Assembly: GCA_012518115.1 (NCBI GenBank)
Contig: JAAYTD010000060.1
Span: forward strand, 1-39,936
Reading direction: 5' to 3'
Length of the DNA stretch: 39,936 nt
Origin: Ignavibacteria bacterium
GTDB taxonomy: Bacteria; Bacteroidota; Ignavibacteria; Kapaibacteriales; UBA2268
Positions 10,713 through 34,030 of the stretch are shown here, in pieces; within the stretch, counting starts at the first letter, position 1; each line of letters opens with the position of its first letter. The notes beneath the pieces are model-generated. The model made no database searches. It was not told where the DNA came from and saw only the letters and a list, made by a program, of their open reading frames with translations. A program made the translations under genes and the position numbers.

Positions 10713-10785
10713 GCCACTTTAGCTCAGTTGGTAGAGCAGCTGATTTGTAATCAGCAGGTCGGGGGTTCAAGTCCGTCAAGTGGCT
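10713..10785 (+). tRNA. tRNA-Thr (anticodon TGT), copy 1
   Basis: A 73-base cloverleaf: acceptor GCCACTT/AAGTGGC with discriminator T, D-stem GCTC/GAGC, anticodon stem GCTGA/TCAGC with loop TTTGTAA (anticodon TGT, reads ACA and related Thr codons), T-loop TTCAAGT. CCA is not encoded. The T-stem GGGGG/CCGTC has a G-G mismatch at 51-63 and a G-U at 50-64. An eight-T run follows shortly after the 3' end. Confidence 0.96.
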
Positions 10786-10851: not shown

Positions 10852-10924
10852 GCCACTTTAGCTCAGTTGGTAGAGCAGCTGATTTGTAATCAGCAGGTCG
10901 GGGGTTCGAATCCGTCAAGTGGCT
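10852..10924 (+). tRNA. tRNA-Thr (anticodon TGT), copy 2
   Basis: Identical to the upstream copy except at two T-loop positions (TTCGAAT instead of TTCAAGT). It keeps the same anticodon TGT and the same 51-63 G-G T-stem mismatch. It too is followed by a T-run. It is presumably a tandem duplicate co-transcribed from the promoter at 10642-10673. Confidence 0.96.
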
Positions 10925-14116: not shown

Positions 14117-14347
14117 TTATGTCACCCCTTCGGGGTTTCTTTGTTTTTGTGCATTATTTTCTATAATCATTTCACCCCTACGGGGTTTGTAGTTAATTTT
14201 TTTAATAAACTACCCCGTCAGGCTTCGCCTGCCACCCCTTCGTCCCGAAGGGGAATTTGCTTACAGCGAAGAGTGGTAAATCCATCTCCCGACTTCTGTC
14301 TTCCGACTTCAAACGACTACCCGTCAAACTTCGTTTGCACCCCTTCA
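14117..14347. repeat. Extragenic palindromic repeat block A
   Basis: Short perfect palindromes: ACCCC-TTC-GGGGT (14124-14136), ACCCC-TAC-GGGGT (14174-14186, 50 bp further on), CAGGC-TTC-GCCTG (14219-14231), CCCCTTCG-TCC-CGAAGGGG (14235-14253) and CAAAC-TTC-GTTTG (14335-14347). Between the last two is the reverse complement of the GAAGTCG/GAAGACA heptamer module also seen near 21169 and 32712. The block is richer in GC than its surroundings. The rest of the 14053-14567 gap is AT-rich. A 98-codon ORF across the block is only a translation of the repeats. Confidence 0.85.
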
Positions 14348-21046: not shown

Positions 21047-21121
21047 CACATTTTTTGCAAATTACTTGTTATATAAAAAAAATTCAAATGACTTTTAATA
21101 AAAAATTGAATTATATAAACT

Positions 21122-21660
21122 CCCATTTGGCACGAATGGGGTCAAACGAAAGCCTGACGAGGTAGTTTGAAGACAGAAGACAGAAGACAGAAGTCGGTAG
21201 TCTATTAAAAAATTAACCACAAACCTCGTAGGGGCGAAATATCGTTCTTGTTATGGCTAATTAAAAAAATGTCACCCCTACGGGGTTTTATCAAAATTTG
21301 GATTTCATAATCTATAATAATGTCATCCCTACGGGATTTTATAGGATACTTGTTTCTTATCCCGTTAGGGATAGAATGTTGGTAAAAAAGTTTATGTTTT
21401 TCTCTGTTTCGTCCCGTATGGGACGAGATTAGTAGCTCACATTTTTTTACCGATATTTTGTGCCTACGGCACATCTTTATGTTTACCTTTTTTCTGTTTT
21501 TGAACAAGATTATACCAAATTGAATTATATATTAGTTCGTTTTTTTGTCTGAACTGTGATTTGTGGGATTTTTATGATTATTAGATGTTTTTTTCCCTAA
21601 AGGTCGGGCTGCAAATTCCCCTTCGGAACGAAGGGGTGGCAAGCGAAGCTTGACGGGGTA
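21122..21660. repeat. Extragenic palindrome array, block B
   Basis: Nearly all of the 21006-21721 gap is repeats. CCCATT/AATGGG stands at 21122-21140. GAAGACA is repeated three times plus GAAGTCG (21169-21196). Then come CCTCGTAGGGG (21224-21234), ACCCC-TAC-GGGGT (21274-21286), ATCCC-TAC-GGGAT (21325-21337), TATCCC-GTTA-GGGATA (21358-21373), TCGTCCC-GTAT-GGGACGA (21409-21426), TGTGCC-TAC-GGCACA (21459-21473), CCCCTTCG-GAA-CGAAGGGG (21618-21636) and AAGC-GAA-GCTT (21641-21651). Stem bases vary between copies while pairing is kept. A 100-codon minus-strand ORF here is only translated repeat. Confidence 0.88.
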
Positions 21661-21694
21661 GTCATTTCGTCAAGCTCAATGAACAGAAAAAATT
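21661..21694. repeat. GTCAAGCTCAATGAAC extragenic element, copy 1
   Basis: The sequence around TCGTCAAGCTCAATGAACAG is related to 23389-23424 and 25651-25686 (consensus TTCATTYTGACAAGYTCRAT followed by GAAC and an A-run). Copies 2 and 3 form a GTTCAT/ATGAAC hairpin; this copy has lost one arm. It adjoins palindrome block B. Confidence 0.65.
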
Positions 21695-32830: not shown

Positions 32831-34030
32831 CTAGCGCCTAGCGCCGCCCGATGTACGAGTTGAACTGTTTGATCTACTACTACTTGAACTCGAACTTGAA
32901 CGAGGAGTACTAGAAGGAGCGCTACTGCGACTTGGTGTAGAATAGCTACTACCACGAGAACTTTCACGGCTTGGAGCAGAATAGCTACTACCACGAGAAC
33001 TTTCACGGCTTGGAGCAGAATAACTACTTCTGTTGCCACGAGTAGAGCTCTCACGGCTTGGCGAAGAACTGCCTCCGCGAGTAGGAGTACTCTCACGACT
33101 TGGCGAAGAACTGCTACCACGAGTACTTTCCCGGCTTGGTGAAGAACTGCTACCGCGAGTTGAAACACCTCCTTCGCGACTTGGTGAAGAACTGCCACCA
33201 CGAGTGGAAACACCTTCATCACGACTTGTTGTAGAACTACCACGAGTGGAAACGCCCTCACGACTTTTTTCTACATCGCGAGTTTTAATTTCATTGCTGC
33301 CTGTTGTTCGTACATTTACAGATGTACGTGTTGTTGTTCTTGCATCTTCACGTTCACCTGCCGAATAGCCAGCACGTGATGTTCCACTGCTGCGACCTCC
33401 ATCTTCACGTATACCTGAACTTCTCATAGATTCATAGTTTCCAGAATTTACGCCTATTGTACGATAGGAGGAACGCGGTTTTGCTACATAATCACGATAG
33501 CTCGGCTGATAGTAATAGCCATCATAATAACCATCATAATATCCGTTATGATAGCCATAATAATAACCATCATAGTATGAACCATAATAATATGGTCTAT
33601 GATAATAAGCATAGTATGGATAATGATAGTTATAACGATAATATGGATGATACCAAGTATAGTAATACCAAGGATCATACCAGCCCCAACCTACAGATAC
33701 ATAAAACCTTGACCAGCCCCAATATGGATAATAATTCCAATATGGGTAATTACTATAAACATTTGAATTGTAATAATTATTTATAATAGTCTTGTTTTCT
33801 TGCTCTGTTGTATCTGTATAGAAAATGTCTGTTCCTATTATTCCGCCACCGCCACCATAATAATTTGTTTCTGATACTTCGACTTCATAAACAATCGTTT
33901 TATCGTCTTGTTTATCTTTTTTCTTCGCAGAGTTATTATATCCGAAGTAATCTTGCTTGTATTCACTATTACTTGTTGCACAGCCTGAAATTATCAATGC
34001 AAATAAAGTGAAAAGTAAAATTTTTTTCAT
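32831..34030 (-). CDS. Repeat-rich lipoprotein (Tyr/Gly/His then Ser/Arg)
   Basis: A 399-residue predicted lipoprotein: signal peptide MKKILLFTLFALIISGC with lipobox-like ISGC (C17). Residues 18-60 are charged. About 60-180 is extremely Tyr/Trp/Gly/His-rich, with YYDGYYYGYHNGYYDGYYDG-type repeats. About 205-399 is Ser/Arg/Gly/Thr-rich and built of about eight degenerate units of 12-16 residues around TRGSSSSPSRES (about 250-385), ending in a Ser run and GGARR. There are no catalytic motifs. It is likely disordered and very basic at the C-terminus. An unusually good SD (GGAGG) precedes it, suggesting high expression. It could be a surface or matrix protein that binds polyanions or metals, but this is speculation. 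The gene is the last on its strand before the smc terminator. Confidence 0.82.
   Translation of the reverse strand: MKKILLFTLFALIISGCATSNSEYKQDYFGYNNSAKKKDKQDDKTIVYEVEVSETNYYGGGGGIIGTDIFYTDTTEQENKTIINNYYNSNVYSNYPYWNYYPYWGWSRFYVSVGWGWYDPWYYYTWYHPYYRYNYHYPYYAYYHRPYYYGSYYDGYYYGYHNGYYDGYYDGYYYQPSYRDYVAKPRSSYRTIGVNSGNYESMRSSGIREDGGRSSGTSRAGYSAGEREDARTTTRTSVNVRTTGSNEIKTRDVEKSREGVSTRGSSTTSRDEGVSTRGGSSSPSREGGVSTRGSSSSPSRESTRGSSSSPSRESTPTRGGSSSPSRESSTRGNRSSYSAPSRESSRGSSYSAPSRESSRGSSYSTPSRSSAPSSTPRSSSSSSSSRSNSSTRTSGGARR
32900..33260. repeat. Coding minisatellite in the lipoprotein gene
   Basis: Degenerate DNA repeats of about 36-45 bp with core CACGGCTTGG and variants CGCGACTTGG/CCCGGCTTGG run through the 3' part of the lipoprotein gene, each encoding one PSRES-TRGSSS unit. 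All copies keep the reading frame. The open antisense and alternative frames over this stretch (111 and 144 codons) result from the repeat composition. Confidence 0.75.

Follow-up and report, generated by a model that had tools for sequence, protein, structure and literature searches.

A 39,936-nt stretch of an Ignavibacteria bacterium contig, which was analysed as a whole and is called the window here, contains an array of short palindromes whose stems differ from one another and nevertheless remain paired. This raises the question of what keeps the stems paired and what kind of element the array represents. The original prediction read the array as compensatory change in hairpin stems, caused either by selection on the hairpin or by a mechanism that rebuilds the inverted arm, and offered REP/RAYT palindromes as the known analogy.

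When hairpins were defined by a stem of at least 5 bp with at least 3 G/C and a loop of 3-4 nt, five were counted at 21224-21480, compared with a mean of 0.08 and a maximum of 3 in 2,000 dinucleotide shuffles, and the density across the remaining window was 0.23 per kb. The five hairpins that had been quoted individually are all real (H4 to H8, Table 1), and the spacings given for H4 and H5 and for the two block A hairpins were both correct. The palindromes at 21618-21652, which had been counted as members of the array, belong to another repeat family.

Table 1. Hairpin units and related features of the window
Feature	Position	Strand	Basis
H3, degenerate left inner hairpin of module 1, ACCTC-GTA-GGGGC (ACCTCGTAGGGGC), tail GAAATATCG	~21223..21235	+	position homologous to intact ACCCCGTAGGGGT+GACAT in M1 copies
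Short spacer separating the inward-facing halves, at the transposase-gene position of autonomous elements	21236..21273	.	comparison with L083, L137, L139
H4, right inner hairpin, ACCCC-TAC-GGGGT, tail toward the left	21274..21286	-	homologous to the hairpin 7 nt past the stop codon in L083/L137/L139 and to the hairpin beside the broken gene
H5, right outer hairpin, ATCCC-TAC-GGGAT, 51 bp from H4	21325..21337	-	sequence; 3'-flank alignment with relatives and broken gene
H6, first hairpin of module 2, TATCCC-GTTA-GGGATA, tail GAATGTTGGTAAAA	21358..21373	+	27 module 2 copies via M2 query; homologous to CTCCC/GGGAG in L092
H7, central hairpin of module 2, TCGTCCC-GTAT-GGGACGA	21409..21426	.	homologue upstream of the transposase gene in G004 reads CCGTCCC..GGGACGG; outer pair T-A to C-G
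H8, last hairpin of module 2, TGTGCC-TAC-GGCACA, tail TTTTACCGATATT at its left	21459..21473	-	adjoins gene in L092
Block A hairpin, ACCCC-TTC-GGGGT, half cassette of the same hairpin-plus-tail unit type	14124..14136	-	sequence
Block A hairpin, ACCCC-TAC-GGGGT, 50 bp from the preceding one	14174..14186	-	L013 aligns to module 1

The repeating unit is a hairpin, usually with a 5-bp stem and a 3-nt loop, followed by a tail of about 15 nt on one strand (consensus GAMATNWTTRTARAA), and the units repeat every ~50 bp with their tails pointing inward. The motif xTA[AG] was present 6-15 nt past the hairpin in 164 of 215 units, compared with 68 when the tails were reversed. The distinct stems recur in a fixed order at other loci: two ACCCC units, a spacer, an ACCCC and an ATCCC unit, and then ATCCC or TATCCC, TCGTCCC and TGTGCC. 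The first part, module 1, is an imperfect inverted repeat with two units on each side, and the second, module 2, is an imperfect palindrome of three hairpins; the window array is a truncated module 1 (degenerate H3, H4 and H5) fused to module 2 (H6-H8). Since the same stems stand in the same order at other loci, the stem differences within the array are differences between cassette positions or elements and not independent compensatory changes. The predicted compensatory change thus does not apply inside the array, but it is found between elements of different transposases, as described below.

Further copies in the genome had been predicted and were found. CCCCTACGGGG occurs 42 times in the 2.48-Mb genome (reversed control, 0), a BLAST search with window 21200-21500 gave 85 own-genome matches, and H8 has 25 exact copies, with others only in three (G004, G061 and G069) of 100 genomes. 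When the units of the fetched loci were mapped relative to genes, none of the 84 lay within an ORF of at least 120 aa. Array copies frequently adjoin other repeat families, and the junctions recur, so recombination of mosaics probably accounts for some of the spread. A third repeat (GTCTGAACTRTGATTTATGTGATT..., window 21547-21590 and own-genome loci L003, L017 and L033) and a fourth (GAAGACAGAAGTCGG, window 21169-21196 and 14293) both recur beside arrays, often at the same junctions. A second family (CCCCTTC..GAAGGGG, GACGGGGTAGTC) is gene-less in the window at 21600-21664, 21120-21165 and 14210-14256; the sole DUF559 (PF04480) gene found in the genome (L232, G000:C53) has inverted copies of it on both sides, and gene and repeat form a parallel gene-plus-inverted-repeat system.

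Pfam Y1_Tnp is present in 50 of 100 relatives. Of the Y1 genes that we fetched, 43 have DH.H, WQ and Y..NQ..HH motifs or close variants, which is the signature of TnpA_Y1 subclass 1.2. None of the flanked genes has Y..NP, and H55, H57, W95, Q96, Y115, Q119, H122 and H123 are invariant among 25 proteins. Quentin et al. 2018 (PMC6006769) characterized this subclass by DH[VI]H, WQ and Y..NQ..HH, a length of about 150 aa and occurrence in Bacteroidota and relatives, and the flanked genes described here resemble it in protein motifs (DH[IV]H, WQ and Y---Q--HH), size (~148 aa) and host phyla. Our first guess from that survey, a cognate gene of subclass 2.6, was abandoned once the flanked genes had been recognised as subclass 1.2. 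Whereas the survey entered subclass 1.2 as REP 'no' and described it as not sharing IS properties, many members here are bordered by inverted hairpin units, on one side or on both, and there are gene-less derivatives.

The 93 kb flanking subclass 1.2 genes contained 82 hairpins with a CGTAG apex, compared with 0-7 for seven control cores. A scan of 84,980 species supplied 78 loci, at which hairpin positions peaked 0-9 nt (27 loci) and 50-59 nt (22 loci) 3' of the stop codon, with matching upstream peaks 10-19 and 60-69 nt before the start, while shuffles gave fewer than one per bin on either side. A perfect hairpin was found within 45 nt of the stop codon at only 68 of 117 loci, about half, and several divergent subclass 1.2-like genes (MSWVKI types) had no hairpins nearby. 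The arrangement is well illustrated by L083 of Ignavibacteria bacterium UBA2373 (the same place as L136), which reads ATCCC-GAA-GGGAT, ACCCC-GAA-GGGGT, gene, ACCCC-TTC-GGGGT, ATCCC-TTC-GGGAT. Taken together, these loci show transposase genes enclosed by inverted palindromes that recur in the genome. At L083 and L137 the 3' end of an hsdS-like gene (type I restriction specificity) immediately precedes the transposase gene; a preference of the elements for such neighbourhoods was considered and dropped, as only 2 of 117 loci show it.

The flanks link these genes to the window. L083, L137 and L139 bear the same ACCCC/ATCCC units as the window, module 1 sharing its stems with L083, and at L139 stems and loops are exactly those of the window, ACCCCTACGGGGT and ATCCCTACGGGAT, 50 bp apart. 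Module 2 has homologues in three hairpin triplets upstream of the subclass 1.2 gene at L092, in a genome of the same family, one triplet standing directly before the gene; compared with the window, these triplets show compensatory stem differences at H6 and H7. Of 100 genomes, only three others contain TGTGCCGTAGGCACA, and each of them has Y1 genes; ATCACGTAGTGAT was found in Y1-bearing genomes in 10 of 11 cases (Fisher 0.008), an association confounded by kinship and genome size.

The original prediction had also proposed a search for a RAYT (Y1 transposase) gene elsewhere in the genome. The Pfam Y1_Tnp search of the own genome gave no match, but a subclass 1.2 profile recovered one fragment (G000:C8:4804-4980, E 7e-26) with in-frame stops. 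Over 59 aa the fragment shares 92% identity with the intact L083 gene, and it retains YIANQEEHH. Four ACCCC/ATCCC-type hairpins follow directly behind it, and its 3' flank can be aligned both to H4-H5 of the window and to the sequence 3' of the gene at L083, L137 and L139. Module 1 thus keeps the ends of a related autonomous element, represented by these three loci and the broken gene, and lacks the gene itself. The same holds for gene-less cassettes with two units per side in G061 (L219, L221 and L223; ATCCC left, GCTCC right), so gene-less derivatives are not peculiar to the own genome. The unequal stems of these three cassettes look like ends of two transposase lineages joined together. A search of the genus of G061 for empty sites gave no clean junction, and neither there nor in comparison with G001, a genome of the window's own genus, was a base-precise empty site obtained; no target duplication was seen.

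Based on these observations, we consider the window array to be a composite of two gene-less, non-autonomous elements that derive from two different Y1/HUH subclass 1.2 transposase elements, and we put the probability of this reading at about 0.86. On this reading, the gene-less array is a REPIN/MITE-like derivative. As the only transposase gene found is broken, the arrays of the own genome are probably immobile remnants, unless a gene sits in the unassembled few percent. The persistence of many copies although the only transposase gene found is broken would also fit palindromes that are domesticated sites, linked to a nucleoid protein, gyrase or replication, with the transposase association secondary. 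However, the same-genus genome G001 has neither an array match nor a subclass 1.2 gene, the stems vary by transposase lineage, and both ends co-vary, so we regard domestication as very improbable.

The pairing of the stems was measured on candidates chosen by their inner three pairs only, which avoids selecting perfect palindromes. Pairs 4 and 5 were complementary in 89% and 87% of downstream and in 82% and 83% of upstream candidates, with up to four pair types, compared with 34-39% in controls at 600-1200 nt, while pairs 6 and 7 were at background level. These results indicate that the stem is typically 5 bp long and is maintained by compensatory change. The inner arms of the two sides of one element differed at 1.0 of 5 positions (Hamming), compared with 2.0 after permutation (minimum of 5,000, 1.46), and were identical at 19 of the 37 loci having both. 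Hairpin-arm distance also rose with protein distance, a modest correlation (Mantel r 0.275, 4 of 2,000 permutations; 32 of 2,000 without close pairs). Shared ancestry enters into both the end-matching and the Mantel test; what they demonstrate is that a gene and its hairpins travel together, and not that each change was selected. Within families the picture was different: recent copies of H7 and H8 had 10 single broken changes, 2 G-T changes and 1 double Watson-Crick change (H6 was left out of these counts because of its loop length shift, GTA/GTTA), so the expected excess of paired substitutions among genome copies did not appear. The idea that selection on the hairpin keeps the stems paired was right in kind, the paired changes being found between elements of different transposases. 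Nothing requires a mechanism that rebuilds the inverted arm.

Selection of this kind could in principle act on transcripts, with the hairpins serving at the RNA level as terminators or as processing or stability elements. The hairpins are short, G+C-rich and intergenic, and convergent genes flank 13 of 36 classified loci, as such a role would have it, but 8 of the 36 have divergent genes on their two sides, no T-run follows the stems, and G-T pairs are rare among the variants. Moreover, transposase genes have these same units on either side, inverted relative to each other. The Rfam search returned only tRNAs at the gathering threshold and weak, chance matches at the permissive threshold. We consider an RNA-level function very improbable, and paired stem differences within one array need not indicate RNA structure.

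The DNA-level reading, a pair of transposase-derived elements, agrees with the predicted protein structure. The AlphaFold model of the transposase (pLDDT 94) gave its best Foldseek matches to ISDra2 and IS608 TnpA in complex with hairpin DNA, followed by the E. coli RAYT-REP complex 4er8, and the HUH single-tyrosine fold is indicated by a Foldseek E of 1.5e-8 to ISDra2 TnpA and a profile match with E 1e-13. An autonomous element consists of a gene for a ~150-aa transposase enclosed by inverted sets of hairpin units. On each side the inner hairpin stands ~10 nt and the outer hairpin ~60 nt away from the gene, each with a 5-bp stem, a 3-nt loop and a ~15-nt tail toward the gene. We read module 1 (H3-H4-H5) as an L083-type element whose gene was replaced by the short spacer, and module 2 (H6-H7-H8) as a derivative of an L092-type element. 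In the mechanism that we propose, which is modelled on IS608, ISDra2 and E. coli TnpA_REP, the transposase would recognise its hairpins while the DNA is single-stranded and would cut within the conserved tail, and gene-less copies would be mobilised in trans. The stems would stay paired because recognition needs pairing, and their differences would reflect a separate hairpin for every transposase lineage; in the own genome, amplification would have stopped for want of an intact transposase.

Comparison with known systems places these elements close to, but outside, REP/RAYT. Nunvar 2010 (PMC2817692) described inverted doublets around a Y1 transposase gene that are extragenic and of high copy number, with gene-specific stems, and such features are shared by the elements here and by REP/RAYT, REPINs and BIMEs (TnpA_REP, class 2), including high-copy gene-less inverted doublets. 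This likeness is the case for canonical GTAG-tagged REP/BIME elements of a class-2 RAYT. However, on the two strands just 1 and 2 of 215 units had GT[AG]G 0-2 nt 5' of the hairpin, the motif of the flanked genes was Y..NQ..HH or a close variant in place of the class-2 Y---NP, and the closest fold is an IS200-type TnpA; we regard this alternative, too, as very improbable. Unlike REP/RAYT, the elements combine a class-1-type transposase with a conserved tail 3' of the hairpin and two hairpins per side at ~50-bp spacing. The predicted analogy is thus apt in kind, as extragenic palindromes are tied to a Y1 tyrosine transposase, but not as to membership. IS200/IS605 elements (IS608, ISDra2) have the closest solved fold, HUH and a single tyrosine with Gln, and hairpins near both ends, but their left and right ends are distinct and not inverted, with subterminal hairpins, whereas the two ends here are copies of each other in inverted orientation, with stems that match and an additional outer hairpin. 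Subclass 2.6, or RAYT group 5 of Bacteroidetes, belongs to the same phylum and has reported atypical flanking structures, but is set apart by its YIH[QN]NP motif.

Beyond this locus, we are inclined to think that a separate REP-like system, present throughout the phylum and following its own rules, is driven by subclass 1.2, with a unit of 5-bp hairpin and 3' tail, doubled ~50 bp apart on each side, and gene-less cassettes whose stems may differ between the sides. If so, the G061 cassettes with ATCCC left and GCTCC right imply that one cassette can join ends from different transposase lineages. Subclass 1.2, surveyed as lacking REP and IS properties, now has a candidate substrate and an element structure, although a later description may exist beyond the open-licence literature. 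The findings account for one class of hairpin arrays found between genes in Bacteroidota-type genomes and provide a natural set of transposase-hairpin pairs from which hairpin recognition by HUH transposases could be read out.

Two other features of the window were observed. Tandem repeats of 36-45 bp lie at 32931-33253, within a reading frame on the minus strand (32831-34030), and the neighbouring tRNA genes at 10713-10785 and 10852-10924 share an identical anticodon stem-loop sequence.
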